From contig NZ_BAMS01000001.1 in assembly GCF_000616095.1 (NCBI RefSeq), forward strand, positions 496,001 to 560,000: a stretch of DNA of 64,000 nt, read 5' to 3'. Each line of letters starts with the position of its first letter. Position 1 is the stretch's first letter. The notes beneath the pieces are model-generated. The model was not told the DNA's origin. It saw only the letters and a list, made by a program, of their open reading frames with translations, and searched no databases. This document shows, piece by piece, positions 4,030 to 29,809 of this stretch. The stretch comes from Sneathiella glossodoripedis JCM 23214. GTDB lineage: Bacteria; Pseudomonadota; Alphaproteobacteria; Sneathiellales; Sneathiellaceae. The translations under genes were made by a program, and so were the position numbers.

Positions 4030-5076
4030 TTAGCCGTTTTTCCAATCCTGAACGATTTTTGCCAAAAGTTCGACATTCTCAGGTGGTGTTTGCGGAATAA
4101 TTCCATGACCCAGATTAAAAATATGAGACCCGCCTGAGAATTTTCGAAGGATATGATGAATGCGGCTCACCATGCATCTCCGCCGGCAACAAGGAGGATC
4201 GGATCCAGATTCCCCTGCACTGTTACTATTGGCTGAATTTCTCGAGCTGCCCAGTCAAGCGAAACCGATGTATCAAGACTAACCGCAGTTACGCCAGTTT
4301 TCTCCACAAATTCAAGGAGATTCCCGCCAACACCTTTTGGAAAACCGATTACGGGAAAATCTGGATATTTAGCTCTGATTGCGGTGACAATTTTTGCCGT
4401 CGGCTGGGTTACCCATCGTTCAAATTTATCGTCAGGCAAAACACCGGCCCATGTATCAAAAATCTGAACTGCTTCAGCGCCAGCTTCTATCTGTTTGATC
4501 AGATATTCAATTGTCGCCTGAACCAGTAATTCGATCAGCTGATCAAAACCTTCTGGATCTGAATAGGCCCATTTTTTGGTTTCCACATAATCTTTAGAGC
4601 CACGACCTTCCACCATATAGGTCGCTACGGTCCAGGGAGCGCCAGCAAAGCCGATTAGGGAACAATGCGAGGGAATGGAGCCGCTCAATCGATTAACGGT
4701 CTCATAGACCGGATTAAGACGATTGTGAAGATTATCAAAAGTCAGTTTTGAAAGTTCTTTTGCCGAGCGAACGGGATCTAGTACTGGTCCTTCACCTTCT
4801 TTATAGGCAAGAGGCTGTCCCAATGCATCAGGAATAAGCAGAATATCGGCAAATAAAATGGCTGCATCCATGTCATATCGACGAAGAGGTTGCAAAGTGA
4901 CTTCTTCTGCTAGTGATGGATTATAGCATAGATCCAGAAACGACCCTGCATCAGCTCTTGTTTGGCGATATTCGGGTAGATATCGTCCAGCTTGTCTCAT
5001 GAGCCAAAAAGGAGGCCTGTCGAGTTTTTCCTGTCGCAAGGCTTTCAAAAATCTTTTGGCGGGTTTAGCTGACACG
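4030..5076 (-). CDS. hemE: Uroporphyrinogen decarboxylase, frame broken near the 3' end
   Basis: HemE decarboxylates uroporphyrinogen III to coproporphyrinogen III. The N-terminal signature [13 protein letters not shown], the GFAGAPWT motif and FDTWAG are intact. The GTG at 5076 is the best start because GAGGAAGG lies eight bases upstream; a TTG at 5093 has no good site. At 4167-4174 the frame runs into TGA after GGDAW. The true C-terminus continues in the next frame ([24 protein letters not shown]..., ending at TAA 4030-4032). One extra A in GCATGG would restore a normal protein of about 348 residues. The lost part holds the conserved NLGHGI segment, so the split form would be dead. A single-base sequencing deletion is more likely than a real mutation in this gene. 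Confidence 0.9.
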
Positions 5077-21514: not shown

Positions 21515-22093
21515 TCACACGAGATTAAGGCGCTGTTCCAGTGCACCGCATAACATATGGCCAAGTGTAATATGCATTTCCTGAATGCGTCGCGTCGATT
21601 GGGCGGGCACAATCAGAACAGGGTCAGCAAGCTGTGGCATAATACCACCGTCCCTGCCGGCAAACGCCGTTGGCACGATGCCCATATTTTTTGCCATTTT
21701 TAATCCTTCAACCACATTCTGGCTGGTGCCGGAAGTTGATATCCCAACCGCAACGTCACCGGGTTTGCCAAGAGCCTGGATTTGACGCGCAAATACCTGA
21801 TCATATCCGAGGTCATTTGCACCGGCTGTCAGGGCTGATGTATCCGTATTGAGGGCGATGGCGGCAATGGGGGCGCGATCCGAAATAAAGCGGATTACGA
21901 GCTCGGCTGCCAGATGTTGTGCATCTGCAGCGCTACCACCATTTCCAAAGAAAAGGATTTTACCCCCCTTCTCTACAGCTTCTGTCCATATATTCAGCAT
22001 TTGAAGAAAGGGACCTGACAAATTAGCTTTGGTACGCGCCAGAACCTGTTCGTGATCGTCTAATTCTTTATTAAAATAGTCCAGAAAATCCAA
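21515..22093 (-). CDS. gmhA: Phosphoheptose isomerase
   Basis: GmhA converts sedoheptulose 7-phosphate to D-glycero-D-manno-heptose 7-phosphate, the first step to LPS heptose. The SIS fold carries FGNGGSAADAQHLAAE and the phosphate loop STSGTSQN; the C-terminal QEMHITLGHMLC helix has the metal or active-site His. I prefer the TTG at 22093, eight bases after AGGA, because the product then begins DFLDYFNKEL as usual for GmhA. A longer frame starts at 22159. It lies seven bases upstream of hldE. Confidence 0.92.
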   Translation of the reverse strand: MDFLDYFNKELDDHEQVLARTKANLSGPFLQMLNIWTEAVEKGGKILFFGNGGSAADAQHLAAELVIRFISDRAPIAAIALNTDTSALTAGANDLGYDQVFARQIQALGKPGDVAVGISTSGTSQNVVEGLKMAKNMGIVPTAFAGRDGGIMPQLADPVLIVPAQSTRRIQEMHITLGHMLCGALEQRLNLV

Positions 22094-22188
22094 GAAACTG
22101 ATCCTTTTGCCTCTGCCAATGCCTCTTAGGGTAATACTGGAACTGACACATACATGCAATTGAACAGTTTGAAATGTGCAAATGGGAA

Positions 22189-23416
22189 TTATGCACCCGC
22201 TGGTGGCAGGTTTCCACTGGCAACATCCTGAATGAGGCGGATATGTTTTGGCAGCAGGTTTTTGAGAGCATACTGGCGCATTACAGTTTGGCGAGCGTTT
22301 TTGCGAACGTCTGCAAGTTGATCCCGATTATCCAGCACATGGGCAATCCGATCGGCAAAAGCTTCATGGTCAAAAAAATCAGCGAGAAAGCCATTTTCAC
22401 TATCCGTTATGACTTCGCGGACGGGCGCAGTGTCTGATGCAACCACGAGTGCCCCACAGGACAAGCTTTCAATTAGGGACCAAGAGAGGACAAATGGGAC
22501 CGTTAGGTAGGCTTGCACCGTTGAGGCCTGCAGGACTTTGACATAATCGCTGTAGGGTAAAAGGCCGGTAAAGTGCAGCCGGTTTTCATCAAACTCAAGT
22601 TCGCCAAGCATTCTCTTTTTCCAGCTATCCCCTTTTGGAAGTCGTTTTCCATAAGCCACTCTGTCTTCACCAACCACCACTATGTGAAGACCCGGACGGT
22701 CTTTTTGCAGTCGGGCAGCAGCCTCATAAACTCCGGAAACCCGCGGTAGGGTTCCATACCACGCGTAGCTAGGTCAAGATTTCATCTGCATCTGACAGGT
22801 CCAGATTTTTAATTTTGAGTTTCGACTTGTGAGCAGGTTTAAAAAAATCCGTATCTACACCATCATGCATGACAGAGAGTTTCGGTTTGAAAATTTCAGG
22901 AAACTGGGACTGCTGAAAACTGGTTGGGACCTGTCCCCAGTCACAATGAGCCAGATCCATCAGAACTGGTAGGTTTTTGGTCCGAATGCGTGATTGATCG
23001 TCAAAGGAAATGTTGGAATCTTTTAGGAAATTGGCGTCAGATCCGAGAGCGTGATAATACCATTCAAAATAGCTGAGCAGTTTCGTGTCGGGAAACAGGT
23101 CTTTAACGTATAGTGACGGACCCCACCCGGAATGGGCGCAGACAATATCAGGCTGAAAGCCTTTTTTCTTCAACTCCAGACAGGCCTTGAACAAGGATTG
23201 CCCATTAATAATCGCTGACTCAGTAGAGCGCAGGTAATGATGGGTTTCTTTGCGTGGCTCACGATGAGGCTTATAGAGCAGGTTACTAACGCCCGGAATT
23301 TTTTCCACAGCCCGGTGAGATGCGAATACTACAGTGTTGTTTTTATTTTGTGCCAGTTTTCGAGCTACATGGCGATATTGGGCTGGAAAATTGTTGTGTA
23401 AGAACAGTACTCGCAT
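22189..23416 (-). pseudogene. Glycosyltransferase family 4 protein, two frame breaks
   Basis: The N-terminal Rossmann part begins at the ATG 23416 (MRVLFLHNNFPAQYRH, SD AGGGGG), with HSGWGPSLYV and HDGVDTDFF. The frame hits TAG at 22769-22771 just where YATRGMEPYRGFPEFM continues in a second frame. It breaks again near 22724-22727, and the rest (AAARLQKDRPGLHIVVVGEDRV to the end at 22189) lies in a third frame with the GT-B donor motif ESLSCGALVVASDTAPVREVI. Restoring one base at each site gives a normal GT4 protein of about 409 residues. It likely builds a surface polysaccharide, by context with heptose genes and a divergent VPLPA-CTERM gene. Whether it is a pseudogene or a sequencing casualty cannot be told here. 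Confidence 0.85.
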
Positions 23417-23824
23417 TCGCGACCCCCTACTGTGCTGTGCGATGTCTTTGAAGCCTATTTAAGCAGCAAAACTTAACCGAACCCTAAAGAGAAGTTTGGA
23501 AAGTTGGTTAATTCGTCATTTTATGAAAAGTGATTCGGAATTTTAGCCAAAATACCCGTACCTCATTTGAGTGATAGACAATTCTTTTTAACAGAAAATT
23601 AACCTTAACGAAAATTAACCGTGATTTTTCTTATGCCTACTAGGGAAGGGAGAAAATGACGGTACAGCAATAAGTTACTGTTTTGTATAAAATTTTACTA
23701 AAAAAGAGAGAAAATTTCGAACTTGCAGCAGATATGAAAAAGCACATACTGGCGCCAATTGCGGTGCCGATCAAAAACTGACTAACGGTAACAGATCGGG
23801 ACTGGCAGCTTAAGAGGTTAAACC
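23417..23824. promoter_or_regulatory. Gene-free divergent region with a CtrA-type site
   Basis: No coding sequence is seen. At 23588-23603 there is TTAACAGAAAATTAAC, an exact TTAA-N7-TTAAC match to the CtrA consensus known from Caulobacter. A second pair of TTAAC half-sites at 23605-23608 and 23615-23618 has a six-base spacer. It lies about 220 bases before the VPLPA-CTERM gene, and the glycosyltransferase diverges on the other side. Regulation by CtrA is an inference from the site alone. Confidence 0.5.
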
Positions 23825-24430
23825 ATGAATAGCGTATTTAAGTTGATTATTGGCGTGTTTGTTCTGACCGTGATTGGTGCGCAGTCAGCAAGTTCAGCCA
23901 CTTTTAACCTTGATTTTAATGAACCACTGACGATTACCCCCCTGTTGAGTGCCAGTTCAACGTCAGGAACGGTTCATGAAGGTCTGACATCTTCAGACAG
24001 CACGAGTTATATGTACAAGTCACCGTTTGAAGGGACAACGACCCCTGCTGAAGCGTTTACGTCGGTTCAGGCTAGATCTGAAGCGTCTTACAAGTTCAGC
24101 GATGCGGTCACACAGGTTAGTTTCCTGTGGGGTTCAGTTGATTTTTTCAACACGGTTGTGTTCAAGAATAACGGAACCATTGTTGATTACTTGAGCGGTC
24201 AAACCGTAATTGATGCAGGTGCTGTGTCCGGCGAAGAATTTGTACAGATTTCAATTTTGGCTTTAGCGGCTTTTGATGAAATCATATTCCGGTCTTCTCA
24301 AAATGCATTTGAGTTTGCCAATCTGAGCATTTCGGCGGTACCCCTGCCAGCAGCGCTCCCACTATATGCTGCCGGTGTTGTTCTGCTTGCTTTGATTGGG
24401 CGTAAGCGTAGCGTAAAAGGGTCAAGCTAA
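23825..24430 (+). CDS. VPLPA-CTERM sorting domain protein
   Basis: This 201-residue exported protein has a signal peptide (about 1-24, KLIIGVFVLTVIGAQSA) and a Ser/Thr-rich body. Its C-terminus is the classic tripartite sorting signal: VPLPAALPL at 172-180, a hydrophobic span (YAAGVVLLALIG), and a basic end (RKR). VPLPA-CTERM proteins are processed by an exosortase of the XrtD type and associate with extracellular polysaccharide. No exosortase gene is in this window. The body has no domain I can name. Confidence 0.85.
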   Translation: MNSVFKLIIGVFVLTVIGAQSASSATFNLDFNEPLTITPLLSASSTSGTVHEGLTSSDSTSYMYKSPFEGTTTPAEAFTSVQARSEASYKFSDAVTQVSFLWGSVDFFNTVVFKNNGTIVDYLSGQTVIDAGAVSGEEFVQISILALAAFDEIIFRSSQNAFEFANLSISAVPLPAALPLYAAGVVLLALIGRKRSVKGSS

Positions 24431-24481
24431 CCCGAGTAAAGAGTAGCGTATTCGTTTATAATTAGAGTAAGCAGTAGCGTA
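24407..24481. repeat. Three copies of a (A/C)GTAGCGTA 9-mer
   Basis: CGTAGCGTA lies at 24407-24415, and AGTAGCGTA at 24442-24450 and 24473-24481. Start-to-start spacings are 35 and 31 bases. They straddle the stop of the VPLPA-CTERM gene, and further GAGTA/GTAGAGTA variants follow up to about 24513. The function is unknown. Confidence 0.4.
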
Positions 24482-24545
24482 ACCAGTAGAGTAGATTTGC
24501 GTATGTCGTAGAGTATCCAAGATTACGATTATCAAGCAGATTTTG

Positions 24546-24575
24546 GGCGGCCTTTTAAGGTCGCCTTTATTTTTG
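24546..24575 (+). terminator. Terminator after the VPLPA-CTERM gene
   Basis: GGCGGCCTT (24546-24554) pairs with AAGGTCGCC (24557-24565) with one mismatch, and a T-rich tail (TTTATTTTTG) follows. It ends the rightward transcript and lies just before the leftward methyltransferase stop. Confidence 0.8.
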
Positions 24576-24597
24576 TGCTTAGCTGATGGAATTTAGA

Positions 24598-25413
24598 TTA
24601 ACTGGTTACCTTTACGGCCTTTTCCGTCTCTTTTCTGGGCTGGTCCTTAGGAGCACGGTCTTTTCGGGGATCAATGGAGTCAAATCCGTCAAAAGGTTGC
24701 TCAAGCCGGGCCCTGCTCATTTCGACATAGTCCGGGTTAATATCGATCCCAATGCTGCGACGTCCCAACACTTTTGCAACTCGGGTAGTTGTTCCGCTTC
24801 CGACAAAAGGATCCAGTATCAACTCCCCCGGATTGGAGGCAGCAGCGATGATCCTCTCGATCAGGGCTTCTGGTTTCTGGGTTGGGTGAGGCTGACGTTC
24901 AGCTGCGCAGTAGTGAACGTGGCTAAATTGCCAGACATCTCCTGGATTAGCCCCAGACATGTTGTTGCGCTTGCGATAATATTTTTGCGGAATTCGAACA
25001 TCATCCAGATTAAAGGTCGCATTCTCTCCTTTGGAAAACCACAGTATGTCTTCATGGCGGGGGGAAAATCCGCGTTTGCGTCCCATTCCTTGCGTGTAAT
25101 GCCACGTAATCCATCCTTGGGGGAGCATATCCAGCTCTTCTTCCAACATGACATAAAGGCGGGCTATATACTTCACGCCCATGAAGCAAAACAGGGATCC
25201 ATCAGGCTTCAGTACCCTTTTGGCCTGCTCCAGCCATTGGCGGGTAAAATTGTGATAGTCTGTCCTTTCCTTCTGGTCGATATTATTACCGTAGTTTTTG
25301 CCAAGATTATAAGGTGGATCAGCAATTATCAGATCCACGCTTTCATCATCAATGGCTTTCAGATGCTCAAGTGCATCGCCACAGAGAAGAATATGTTCGT
25401 CATAATCCTGCAT
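24598..25413 (-). CDS. YhdJ-like DNA adenine methyltransferase (solitary)
   Basis: The 271-residue protein is an N6-adenine or N4-cytosine methyltransferase of the beta order: the catalytic motif DPPYN (32-36) comes first, HPTQKP at 176-181 and the SAM-binding motif DPFVGSGTT (201-209) at the end. It resembles E. coli YhdJ (DPPYNIGKN, HPTQKPEALL). No restriction enzyme gene is adjacent, so it is an orphan enzyme. Its ATG directly follows the regA stop (TAAATG) with no obvious ribosome site of its own, so translation is probably coupled to regA. It is not CcrM: the N-terminal layout and the absence of the CcrM C-terminal domain differ. The target site is unknown. Confidence 0.88.
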   Translation of the reverse strand: MQDYDEHILLCGDALEHLKAIDDESVDLIIADPPYNLGKNYGNNIDQKERTDYHNFTRQWLEQAKRVLKPDGSLFCFMGVKYIARLYVMLEEELDMLPQGWITWHYTQGMGRKRGFSPRHEDILWFSKGENATFNLDDVRIPQKYYRKRNNMSGANPGDVWQFSHVHYCAAERQPHPTQKPEALIERIIAAASNPGELILDPFVGSGTTTRVAKVLGRRSIGIDINPDYVEMSRARLEQPFDGFDSIDPRKDRAPKDQPRKETEKAVKVTS

Positions 25414-25959
25414 TTACTGGGGGGATCTTTTGGCCATGATCCGCTGCAGGGTTCTGCGGTGCATATTCAATCGGCGCGCGGTTTCTGACATGTTGCGATC
25501 GCAAAGCTCATATACTCGTTGGATATGCTCCCATCGAACCCGATCCGCAGACATGGGATTTTCTGGTGGTTCAGGTTTTTCTCCCTCGCGGGCATAGAGC
25601 GCATTGATGATATCATCCACATTTGCGGGTTTTGCCAGATAATCAATGGCACCGGCCTTCACAGCGGCGACAGCAGAAGCGATGTTTCCATAACCGGTGA
25701 GCATGACGATGCGTGCCGCGGGGCTGGCATTTCTGATGGCTTCTACCACTTCGAGGCCACTGCCATCTTCAAGGCGCAAATCCACCACCGCAAACTGGGG
25801 ATTACAGGTTGCGGCAAGTTTAACACCTTCAGCGACACTATTCGCCAATGTAGGAGTAAATCCATTTTTTTCCATGGAACGACCTAGCCGGTTCAGGAAG
25901 ATCTGATCGTCATCCACTATTAAAAGGCGTTTTTCATCCATCACGCGTTTTCCACTCAT
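25414..25959 (-). CDS. regA: Redox response regulator RegA/PrrA/ActR
   Basis: RegA controls photosynthesis, respiration and nitrogen or carbon fixation genes in response to redox state through RegB. The receiver domain has LIVDDD at 13-18, the phospho-acceptor D60 in FAVVDLRLEDGSG, and the lysine in YLAKPAN. The C-terminal Fis-like HTH (SETARRLNMHRRTLQRIM) is nearly invariant in this family. The start is at 25959 or the Met six codons later. It lies 17 bases after regB, followed without a gap by a DNA methyltransferase gene. Confidence 0.93.
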   Translation of the reverse strand: MSGKRVMDEKRLLIVDDDQIFLNRLGRSMEKNGFTPTLANSVAEGVKLAATCNPQFAVVDLRLEDGSGLEVVEAIRNASPAARIVMLTGYGNIASAVAAVKAGAIDYLAKPANVDDIINALYAREGEKPEPPENPMSADRVRWEHIQRVYELCDRNMSETARRLNMHRRTLQRIMAKRSPQ

Positions 25960-25976
25960 CCATCCGTTTTCAGAGT

Positions 25977-27299
25977 CTACAGGTAGGGGTCTGCCTTTTC
26001 AAGCTGGCTGCGAGGCCATTCCACCGCCACTCGAGCACCACCATCGAGCTGATTTCCGAGGGAGAGATGACCCCCGGTATGCTTGATCAGCATATCAGCG
26101 ATAAAAACTCCCAGGCCCATACCCCCCTTGCCTGCACGGCTTGACGTATAGGGCTCCCCCAATCGGTCAAGTATTTCGTCACTAAAACCAGGGCCGTCAT
26201 CCTGAATAATGATTTCTACCCGGCGTTCTGACCAATTCAGTGTAATATCCACAGCTTGCTTGCAGAATTCACCCGCATTGCTCACCAGGTTGCCGAGCCC
26301 ATAGAGGAGTTCAGGAGTTGCAAACAGGCTGGGCTGCGTTTTGGGATCCCCAACGTTATGAATTCTGAAGGTTGCGTGAGGAGCAGACTGTTTTTCAACA
26401 ACCAATTCCATCAGGCTTTGCAGTGGCAGATAATTATGATGGGCGTCATTTTGCAAAAATCGGCTGGTATCTGGTTTAGTGGAGAGTTGTTCCAGCACCT
26501 CTCTGCATTTACGGGCCTGATCATACAGGAGGCGAGCATCTTCTGCATGGTCACTTCCTTCAGTGAATTCTTTGGACAATTCTTCGGATACAAGAAGAAT
26601 GGTATTAAGCGGTGTTCCCAGTTCATGGGCTGCGGCTGCAGCGATCCCGCCTATAGCTGAGAGTTGCTGTTCTCTTGCGAGGGCAAATCTTGCAGCGGTA
26701 AGAGCTTCGGTCATTCGCTGACTATCCTTGGAAATACGCCATGCATAAATGGACAGAAACACCGTTCCCAATACAAGGGCGGACCAGATCGCGAATATAT
26801 AGGTGTTCGAGAGGCGGATCTCACCTTCTGGCAGTGGAAGCGGTTCATGAACAAGCGCCAGCATAGTTACTGCTATGATGGTTGTTAAACCCAGAAAAAC
26901 GGTCCCCTTCAAGGAGAGGTTTGTCGCGGAAATTGTGACAGGAACCAGAAACAGGAGTGAAAACGGGTTGGTTAGTCCGCCGGTCAGATACAATAAACCC
27001 GTAAGCTGCAATGCATCGTAAAACAGATATAAAATTGCTCCTCGGTCCGAGAGGCGTGTCGCAGGGCGGGAGCTCAAAGTGACCAGAATATTGAGAAGGG
27101 CGCTGGAACTTACCAGCAGGACCGCGGGAACAATTGGCAGTTCATACCCTAAAAATACGTGAACAAGAAGAAGGGCAAATGCCTGCCCCAACACAGCAAG
27201 CCAGCGAATATAGACCAATGACTGAAGACGTACACCGCGTGATGCGTTCAGGATGTTTGTATCAGATGCGCCCTGATCCGCGAGAGTTGCTGCAACCAT
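25977..27299 (-). CDS. regB: Redox sensor histidine kinase RegB/PrrB/ActS
   Basis: RegB is a membrane kinase that senses quinone pool and thiol redox state. The 440-residue protein has about six N-terminal membrane segments, the ubiquinone-site motif GGLTNPFS (107-114), and the H-box AAAAHELGTPLNT with H225. The redox-active cysteine KCREVL falls at residue 265, the position known in Rhodobacter RegB. An HATPase domain with N and G boxes (NLVSNAGEF, DDGPGFS, GMGLGVF) ends it. No senC/sco gene lies between regB and regA, unlike in Rhodobacter. Confidence 0.93.
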   Translation of the reverse strand: MVAATLADQGASDTNILNASRGVRLQSLVYIRWLAVLGQAFALLLVHVFLGYELPIVPAVLLVSSSALLNILVTLSSRPATRLSDRGAILYLFYDALQLTGLLYLTGGLTNPFSLLFLVPVTISATNLSLKGTVFLGLTTIIAVTMLALVHEPLPLPEGEIRLSNTYIFAIWSALVLGTVFLSIYAWRISKDSQRMTEALTAARFALAREQQLSAIGGIAAAAAHELGTPLNTILLVSEELSKEFTEGSDHAEDARLLYDQARKCREVLEQLSTKPDTSRFLQNDAHHNYLPLQSLMELVVEKQSAPHATFRIHNVGDPKTQPSLFATPELLYGLGNLVSNAGEFCKQAVDITLNWSERRVEIIIQDDGPGFSDEILDRLGEPYTSSRAGKGGMGLGVFIADMLIKHTGGHLSLGNQLDGGARVAVEWPRSQLEKADPYL

Positions 27300-27326
27300 T
27301 ACCCTAACATAGCCAAGCCCTGATCG

Positions 27327-28372
27327 TCAGTTCAGTTTCCGGCTTTCTCCAATACTCATTATCCAGATATTTTCCGGATCATATCCTTCTTTGGTAGCTG
27401 CTTGCAAGAAGCGTCCGGGAGGTTCAAACAAAGGCTCATCCGTAAGCCGGACCGTTCCCCAGTGCATACCGACAATCGTTTTAGCTTTGACATCCTGAGC
27501 GATTTTTACGGCTTCTTCGGGGGTTGTGTGGTGCGCCTTCATGATAGCCCTCGGCTCATAAGCACCAATACCGACCAATGTATAGTCAAAAGGCCCTTCA
27601 AGTTTGCCTATTTCTTTAAAGAGTGGGCCGTAGCCGGTGTCACCGGTGAAATAAATACTCGTAGCATCATGTTTGAAGGCAAAAGATGCCCACAATGTCT
27701 TGTTGCGGTCAAAAGGTGTTCTTTTTGACCAGTGTTGTGAAGGTAGGGCCGTAATTTGAATGTCATTTTCTTCAAATCGGTCCCACCAGTCCATTTCGAT
27801 AACGCGGGAAAAACCTCGCTTTTTGAAATAATTACCCAGACGCAGAGGAACAATGACAGTAATATCGGATTTACCCTGTATTGCGCGTATAGTGCGCGCA
27901 TCAAGATGATCATAGTGGTTATGTGACAGGACAAGATAATCCAGAGGTGGTAAGTCAGACAGGCGTATGCAGGATCGACAAATCGCTTGGGCCCGGCAAA
28001 TGGAAAAGGGGATGCGTAAGGCGAAAGATAAGGATCTGTCAGGATTGTCTTTCCATTAATGCGCAGTAAAAAGCAGGCCTGCCCCAGCCATGTGGCACAA
28101 TCTGTCTCAGAAGCATGAAACGCACGCATTTTCGCAGCGGCATCATCAGGATTTAGGACGTGACCATCGGGAATAGTAATCCGTTCCCTGCTATAGCCGA
28201 TCATGCGCCAGATAAATGACAAATATGTTTTTCGGGAGGGTTTAGTAATCTCAGGGTTGGGCAGGTTTGAAAATCGCTTCCCATTAAAGGGTGCTTTCGT
28301 TTGAGCGGTTTCAGTGTGATGCCGTGTACTTTTTTTAAGCACAGATATGCTTCCTTTCGCCCTTTTTCCCAA
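27327..28372 (-). pseudogene. Metallo-beta-lactamase-fold hydrolase (NAPE-PLD/UlaG-like), frame broken
   Basis: The N-terminal part (WLGQACFLLRINGKTILTDP, then GPKRFVDPA) is in one frame from the ATG at 28372. At 27965-27970 the sequence shifts, and RLSDLPPLDYLVLSHNHYDHLD with the HxHxDH zinc motif continues in another frame up to 27327. Later ligands include TGDTGYG and MHWGT. One extra A in GCATAC gives DPAIRLSD and a protein of about 349 residues, a normal length for this RomA/NAPE-PLD-like family. Such enzymes cleave phospholipid or other phosphodiesters, but the substrate here is unknown. It lies 27 bases upstream of regB. Confidence 0.82.
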
Positions 28373-28555
28373 AGGGGCAGTTTCACTTCTTAATTACGTC
28401 ACATTTATGAGTTTGATAGAGAAAAGCAACGATAAACGTGTATTTGAGGCCCGATAGATGGAATTGTTTAATGTACAATGACGTTAAACTCGGGCAATAA
28501 TTCGCGTCATGTGAGTTCAGGCAATTTCTTTTGACAACTCCTTCAGGGGGATAAA

Positions 28556-29260
28556 ATGCTTTTAAAATGGGTACAGGCGTTTAAAAAATATGTAGTCGGC
28601 GGGTTTGCGGGTCTGTTGATCCTGCTACCTTTTGGCCACGCAGTTGCCAGTAGCGAACAACAGCAGCTGGTGGACAAGGCAAAGTTGACGGTGGAAGCGC
28701 TGCAAAACCAGTCCGAAATGGAACAGTTTCGCAAATTGCTGGCTGTTTCAAAAGGCGTAGTGATTTTCCCGCAGTTTTTGAAGGCGGGCTTTATTGTGGG
28801 TGGTGCCGGCGGTACAGGTGTTCTGCTGGCCCGCAATAAAGAAGGTAGCTGGAGTTCACCGGCCTTTTATACGATGGGTCAGGCGAGCGTTGGGCTGCAG
28901 ATTGGTGCCGAGGCGAAGGAACTTGTCTTGCTTATCATGACTGACAAAGGCATGGACGCCATTATCAAAAATCAGGTGAAGCTCGGGGGTGACCTTAGCG
29001 CCGCGGTTGGGCCGGTTGGCAAAAATATCGGTGCATCCAGCACAACAAACATGGATGTGGACGTATTTTCCTTTGCCAAAACTGCTGGGCTGTTCATTGG
29101 CGCTTCAGTAGAGGGCTCATTACTGGATGCGAAAGATGACTGGCAGGAAGCTTATTATGGCAAGCCGGTAACCGCACGGAATATCGTTATTCTCAGAAGC
29201 GTTGATAGCCCCGCTGCAAGCGCACTTAAAAATGCATTGAAAGCAGCAGAGGCTCCTTAA
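28556..29260 (+). CDS. SYLF (YSC84)-domain lipid-binding protein
   Basis: The 234-residue protein has a signal sequence (about 1-31) and a SYLF domain (about 55-232) with KGVVIFPQFLKAGFIVGGAGGTGVLL and YTMGQASVGLQIGAEAKELVLLIM. SYLF domains bind phosphoinositides in eukaryotes, and the bacterial secreted forms have no settled role. A good ribosome site (CAGGGGG) precedes the ATG. It converges with the ankyrin-repeat gene six bases away. Confidence 0.87.
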   Translation: MLLKWVQAFKKYVVGGFAGLLILLPFGHAVASSEQQQLVDKAKLTVEALQNQSEMEQFRKLLAVSKGVVIFPQFLKAGFIVGGAGGTGVLLARNKEGSWSSPAFYTMGQASVGLQIGAEAKELVLLIMTDKGMDAIIKNQVKLGGDLSAAVGPVGKNIGASSTTNMDVDVFSFAKTAGLFIGASVEGSLLDAKDDWQEAYYGKPVTARNIVILRSVDSPAASALKNALKAAEAP

Positions 29261-29266
29261 AGTAGA

Positions 29267-29809
29267 TTATTGGGGAAGCGCCAGAAGTTTTTCGACTGAA
29301 CGGTTGCGATTTTCCCTTGCATGATCCAGAGCTGTCCGGCCGGTAAAGTCGGTCAGCTCCTTATCCGCATTAAACTGAAGAAGTAATTTCGCAACATCAA
29401 GATGTCCCTCCTGAGCGGCCTTAATCAGCGGGGATTCCCCTTTGTTATTCACGTCATTAACATTCGCTCCGGCCTGCAGGAGTATTTCCACAATTTCGGG
29501 ATGATTTTGCGAGACTGCATACATCAGTGTTGAATTTCCCAGCCTGTCAGTAAGATTTACATTCGCCTTGTTTCGAATGAGAACTTCAACCACGCTGGTG
29601 GAGCCAGCTTCGGCTGCACGGCTAATCAGCGGGACTTTGGAGCTGTCACGGATATTCACATTTTCCCGTTTTAACAGATAGGCTTCAACATTTTCGGAAT
29701 TGTTTTGCGCTGCAGCGTCGAAAACTTCATGCTCACCGAACAAAGAGGCAGCCTGTATATTGAAGCTTATCAATAACAGAAGCGCGAAAGTGGCTGAAAA
29801 CCTAATCAT
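29267..29809 (-). CDS. Secreted ankyrin-repeat protein
   Basis: This 180-residue protein has a signal peptide (about 1-20) and about four ankyrin repeats, visible as NVNIRDSSKVPLISRAAEAG, ANVNLTDRLGNSTLMYAV, ANVNDVNNKGESPLIKAAQEG and DKELTDFTGRTALDHARE. Ankyrin repeats mediate protein binding. The signal peptide places it in the periplasm or outside the cell. There is no catalytic domain and no partner gene that points to a target. Confidence 0.87.
   Translation of the reverse strand: MIRFSATFALLLLISFNIQAASLFGEHEVFDAAAQNNSENVEAYLLKRENVNIRDSSKVPLISRAAEAGSTSVVEVLIRNKANVNLTDRLGNSTLMYAVSQNHPEIVEILLQAGANVNDVNNKGESPLIKAAQEGHLDVAKLLLQFNADKELTDFTGRTALDHARENRNRSVEKLLALPQ

Follow-up and report, generated by a model that had tools for sequence, protein, structure and literature searches.

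A predicted HpaI-type adenine methyltransferase without its endonuclease, kept directly behind the redox regulator gene regA in Sneathiella

In Rhodobacter, the gene arrangement around the redox two-component system RegB/RegA (PrrB/PrrA, ActS/ActR) includes senC and hvrA. Among the DNA methyltransferases of alphaproteobacteria, CcrM, which targets GANTC, is a solitary beta-class adenine enzyme kept across the lineage. The motif GGXXNPF and residue Cys265 are described as the quinone and redox sensors of RegB (PMC8191878; PMC9147068), and the restriction enzyme HpaI cuts GTTAAC (PMC6449724). A two-component system that influences a methyltransferase and the methylome has been reported in H. pylori, namely ArsRS acting on HsdM1 (PMC10810217), while MamA of M. 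tuberculosis is a solitary methyltransferase required for survival in hypoxia; the rise of such solitary enzymes from restriction-modification systems has been described as unresolved (PMC13076061).

Here we analyzed a 64-kb window, the whole stretch of DNA under study, from the 3.63-Mb genome of the marine bacterium Sneathiella glossodoripedis JCM 23214. Three genes lie head to tail on the minus strand in the order regB, regA and a DPPY-type methyltransferase gene, with the following features (coordinates here and below are positions within the window):

25977..27299, minus strand: regB, RegB/PrrB/ActS redox histidine kinase, 440 aa (NCBIfam NF033792)
26961..26981, minus strand: GGLTNPF, quinone-binding heptapeptide, RegB residues 107-113 (motif found; GGXXNPF in PMC8191878)
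26505..26507, minus strand: codon of the redox cysteine, RegB Cys265 (residue 265; alignment column)
25414..25959, minus strand: regA, ActR/PrrA/RegA redox response regulator, 181 aa (NCBIfam NF033791)
25411..25416, minus strand: TAA-ATG junction, regA stop then methyltransferase start (sequence; spacing in 24 loci)
24598..25413, minus strand: predicted solitary HpaI-type N6-adenine DNA methyltransferase, 271 aa (PF01555; PADLOC MTase_II PDLC03299; endonuclease-paired relatives)
25309..25320, minus strand: DPPY catalytic motif, residues 32-35 (kept in Reg-linked and endonuclease-linked copies)
24910..25104, minus strand: central part, residues 104-168, probable target-recognition region (near-identical in solitary and endonuclease-paired copies)
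24787..24813, minus strand: DPFVGSGTT, cofactor-binding motif, residues 201-209 (alignment of both groups)

Both regulators passed the curated NCBIfam equivalog cut-offs, RegA with 296.5 bits against 250 (NF033791) and RegB with 486.7 bits against 350 (NF033792). The window RegB contains GGLTNPF and the H-box HELGTPL, and a cysteine occupies the 265 column in all 30 aligned RegB rows, the numbering of the window protein being exactly 265. A RegB with the conserved Cys265 and a quinone motif, as had been predicted from the DNA, was thereby borne out, and these sequence features support its identity as a bona fide RegB in which quinone/oxygen control of the kinase is predicted. Unlike the described RegB/RegA systems, however, the Sneathiella operon carries a DNA methyltransferase, and the literature, judged by titles and the starts of abstracts, yielded no paper that places a methyltransferase in such an operon. 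The H. pylori case resembles it in that a two-component system acts on a methyltransferase, but it concerns acid sensing rather than redox and a type I system with an hsdR1-hsdM1 operon (PMC10810217); for MamA, the passages on it do not mention an operon shared with a two-component system for redox sensing (PMC13076061).

The methyltransferase matched PF01555 (230.9 bits) and was classed by PADLOC as MTase_II (PDLC03299), its motif order being that of the beta class, DPPY first and FxGxG last. We compared 66 loci encoding a relative, leaving out the five weakest (L128-L132). A restriction endonuclease lies near the methyltransferase in 35 of these loci, directly ahead of it as in the HpaI system, and RegA in 23, with both in none and neither in eight. 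The endonuclease neighbour is a conserved protein of ~255 aa, located mostly 2 to 60 bases upstream, and the 35 neighbours are 54-100% like three query endonucleases. The three neighbours run through PADLOC were all called type II restriction enzymes (PDLC03492); Pfam and NCBIfam gave these proteins no usable name (one sub-threshold leuA_yeast match), nor did a search of the PDB. Another neighbour (L117) is 69% identical, ungapped over all 254 residues, to what we take to be the HpaI sequence, and the HpaI identity rests on that presumed sequence, the comparison running through the endonuclease and not through M.HpaI itself. The Sneathiella locus differs from the HpaI system in having no endonuclease and in having regA in the upstream place.

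Residues D32, P33, P34 and Y35 together with F203, G205, S206 and G207 are common to the Reg-linked and endonuclease-linked groups. The two groups also share 14 of the 15 columns at residues 151-165, and the target is therefore probably unchanged. The PADLOC endonuclease model found no matching enzyme in 40 genomes (relatives, own included), and it gave nothing in G387 or in the genomes of L077, L078 and L084; as a positive control, it matched in 5 of the 10 genomes of the control search. The orphan status claimed in the original prediction was thus upheld. The eight loci with neither partner comprise four (L067, L083, L122, L124) that reach a contig end within 210 bases upstream and four (L081, L113, L114, L125) with 3 kb of upstream sequence holding neither an endonuclease nor RegA, so that endonuclease loss is not special to capture by regA. 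The latter four are further solitary members of the family, and three of these come from MAGs labelled Myxococcota. In a methyltransferase tree of 63 rows, one change between the endonuclease-linked and Reg-linked states suffices, although some branches around the Reg-linked clade are weak and L081 is placed inside it. Searches of plasmids and phages with the methyltransferase (tblastn) retrieved only relatives of <60% identity. With no cognate endonuclease in its genome, the enzyme looks like a solitary derivative of an HpaI-type pair and not a restriction-modification system; both arrangements survive among the relatives, the earlier one with the endonuclease gene ahead of the methyltransferase and the later one with regA in that place. 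Neither this origin nor the probable target GTTAAC formed part of the original prediction.

At the junction (...CCC CAG TAA ATG CAG GAT...), 0 bases separate the regA stop from the methyltransferase ATG, just as had been read from the DNA, and this ATG is the sole in-frame ATG/GTG/TTG there. The further claim that the gene has no clear ribosome site was confirmed more widely, as GGAG, GAGG, AGGA, AGGAG and GGAGG were all absent 5' of the start in the window and in 23 other loci. Abutting genes are by themselves frequent in bacteria. The distance from regA stop to methyltransferase start, however, stays between -4 and +14 bases in all 24 loci compared, mostly of one genus, and it is the kept order and kept tight spacing, not the abutment itself, that go past chance. 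The gene anatomy therefore gives good support to the proposed translational coupling of the methyltransferase to regA.

The methyltransferase is present in all 24 genomes of the genus Sneathiella (own included), and RegA is adjacent by coordinates in 23; in the exception (G012), the match lies 64 bases from a contig end. Near-full, unbroken matches were obtained in 21 of the 24, those of G006 and G009 being split at contig ends and that of G013 being frame-shifted within a stretch of ambiguous bases, probably through misassembly; in G005 and G017, the stops that had been flagged in frame are simply the normal ends of the gene. The same order was found in a Minwuiaceae MAG (L077), Oceanibacterium hippocampi (L078) and a Rhodospirillales MAG (L084), whose RegB proteins are just 46-49% identical, and L080 has the end of regA 5' of the methyltransferase, the contig edge falling inside regA with regB beyond it. 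The survey of neighbourhoods thus agreed with the expectation that the order is kept in relatives. Among 385 sampled genomes of the class (genus members included), there were seven matches at E 1e-50, consisting of five genus members, G387, where the methyltransferase follows the end of regA, and G132, where it follows an endonuclease. The genus-genome set and the wider locus set largely overlap, and L133 seems to be the same locus as L080; their counts were not summed.

GTTAAC was named as the target before any bases were counted, and its expectation in sampled DNA was derived from 5-mers and 4-mers and ranked among the 64 six-base palindromes. The own sample (G000) held 53 sites against 117.5 expected (observed/expected (o/e) 0.45, rank 1 of 64, Poisson P 2e-11), and the ratios in the other Sneathiella samples were 0.28 (G005, rank 1), 0.45 (G022, rank 2) and 0.29 (G011, rank 3). 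CTTAAG, a control that shares the TTAA core and is under the same reading-frame limits, stayed near 1 in four Sneathiella samples (1.04, 1.02, 1.15 and 0.84). GTTAAC was not depleted in the well-sampled outgroup G032 (17 sites versus 13.4 expected, o/e 1.27), and outgroup G026 had 6 versus 4.3 expected; ratios of 0.60 and 0.58 in outgroups G027 and G035 come from merely two sites each, too few to judge. In the endonuclease-carrying genomes G404 and G132, the ratios were 0.39 (rank 10) and 0.43 (rank 21), many palindromes being lower. Across whole genomes, the median GTTAAC/CTTAAG ratio was 0.44 in 24 genus genomes versus 0.74 in 16 genomes from outside the genus (Mann-Whitney p 4e-4, kinship uncorrected), G010 (probably S. 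chinensis) going against the trend with 101/75 = 1.35. The depletion in four of four Sneathiella samples fits the predicted target and is an indirect sign that the methyltransferase may methylate GTTAAC, although it could also be left over from earlier restriction and need not show that the sites are methylated today.

The depletion is most marked within genes (0.35) and less so in intergenic DNA (0.70), and the remaining GTTAAC sites are for this reason relatively intergenic. We counted 25 of 81 remaining sites between genes, compared with 33 of 193 for CTTAAG (p 0.015), the fractions for TTTAAA and ATTAAT being 0.228 and 0.185; the enrichment is modest. There is no GTTAAC within 22000-29300 of the window and none inside the regB, regA and methyltransferase genes of 22 relatives, and our search for methylation feedback on the regBA operon thus came up empty. 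L063 alone has GTTAAC nearby, at 4683 and 4704, past the methyltransferase.

In the eight pairs of lowest dS, the dN/dS of the methyltransferase was 0.07-0.16, and these low values together with the unbroken frames indicate purifying selection on the enzyme without a restriction partner. We consider it fairly probable that an HpaI-type modification enzyme parted from its endonuclease, came to lie behind regA through a single capture and maintains GTTAAC methylation at a dose set by the RegB/RegA operon. The gene would have started out encoding the methyltransferase of an HpaI-type type II pair, an N6-adenine enzyme with the predicted target GTTAAC. Once the endonuclease was lost, the methyltransferase would have been captured directly behind regA in a lineage ancestral to Sneathiella and to some of its relatives, regA now occupying the place held elsewhere by the endonuclease gene. 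Ribosomes finishing regA would restart on the methyltransferase, as the anatomy suggests, and because of this re-initiation the amount of methyltransferase would track RegA synthesis. The solitary and possibly regulatory enzyme would then keep the few GTTAAC sites of the genome (194 in all) methylated. We infer re-initiation and GTTAAC methylation, as well as regulatory use and redox dependence; redox-dependent methylation, which we put forward as a prediction, would need redox-responsive transcription of the operon, because coupling tracks RegA synthesis and redox state acts on RegA phosphorylation.

Several other readings of the locus have to be weighed against this one. The methyltransferase may be a housekeeping or protective enzyme, either a shield against incoming HpaI-type restriction or a general marker of DNA, to which the regBA operon merely gives steady low expression. 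Its origin in a restriction-modification family and a GTTAAC depletion that fits restriction pressure agree with such a role, and a relative of the endonuclease occurs on a mobilizable Acinetobacter plasmid; that plasmid, however, is the sole one among 72,556 records searched with one endonuclease query, the 40 genomes yielded no endonuclease and the kept linkage to regA is left unexplained, so we regard the protective role as possible but short of probable. Rather more doubtful is a redox-epigenetic switch, in which the methyltransferase would be a second, slower output of RegB/RegA, the quinone/oxygen state setting operon expression and thereby the methylation of promoter GTTAAC sites. The conserved operon membership, the intact redox features of RegB and the intergenic enrichment of remaining sites point in this direction, and ArsRS-HsdM1 offers a precedent (PMC10810217). 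Yet coupling tracks the amount of RegA and not its phosphorylation, a redox response of the operon is hypothetical, GTTAAC is absent near the operon and the enrichment is weak. The boldest form of the idea, that a former restriction methyltransferase, produced by the same ribosomes as RegA, became a hard-wired second RegB/RegA output writing redox history as N6-adenine methylation on ~200 GTTAAC sites, so that the state of respiration would be remembered epigenetically and passed on to daughter cells, we think unlikely. If methylation does follow redox state, the locus would connect a respiratory sensor straight to the epigenome, and the predicted site makes such a link between redox state and a DNA mark testable.

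The relatives of the methyltransferase are scattered across many phyla, as expected of a mobile family, and a mobile gene might have landed behind regA recently with no functional tie to it. The conservation data disfavour this, since order and tight spacing are kept where RegB identity is 46-49% and dN/dS is low, and we hold such a chance neighbourhood to be very unlikely. That the enzyme is instead a known solitary methyltransferase, CcrM or YhdJ, is hardly credible. It belongs to the same Pfam family and, like CcrM, is solitary, beta-class and kept across the lineage, but it scores far under the curated cut-offs for both, with 146.1 bits against 830 for the NCBIfam CcrM model and 196 bits against 292 for PRK11524 (YhdJ), and both identities were rejected. 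The genome also has a separate DPPY methyltransferase homologue at G000:C12:1235433-1236164 (39% identity, in a 388-residue frame), which is probably its CcrM. The reading we prefer for the window gene is still that of a former HpaI-type modification enzyme captured behind regA.

Some neighbouring genes also deserve mention. Upstream of regB lies a gene (27327-28372, minus strand) that we take to encode a metallo-beta-lactamase-fold protein; compared with the intact relative in L064 it reads as two overlapping frames, with pieces at 28351-27974 and 28010-27333, which points to a frameshift or a sequencing error. A probable glycosyltransferase gene (22189-23425, minus strand) looks broken, its relative being matched in the pieces 23425-22736 and 22722-22192, and in several Sneathiella loci a glycosyltransferase gene is found directly 3' of the methyltransferase. 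Between the methyltransferase and the glycosyltransferase, the window encodes a secreted-type protein (23825-24430, plus strand) that ends in a VPLPA-like segment at its C terminus, has no Pfam match and has relatives in L063, L066, L070 and L123.
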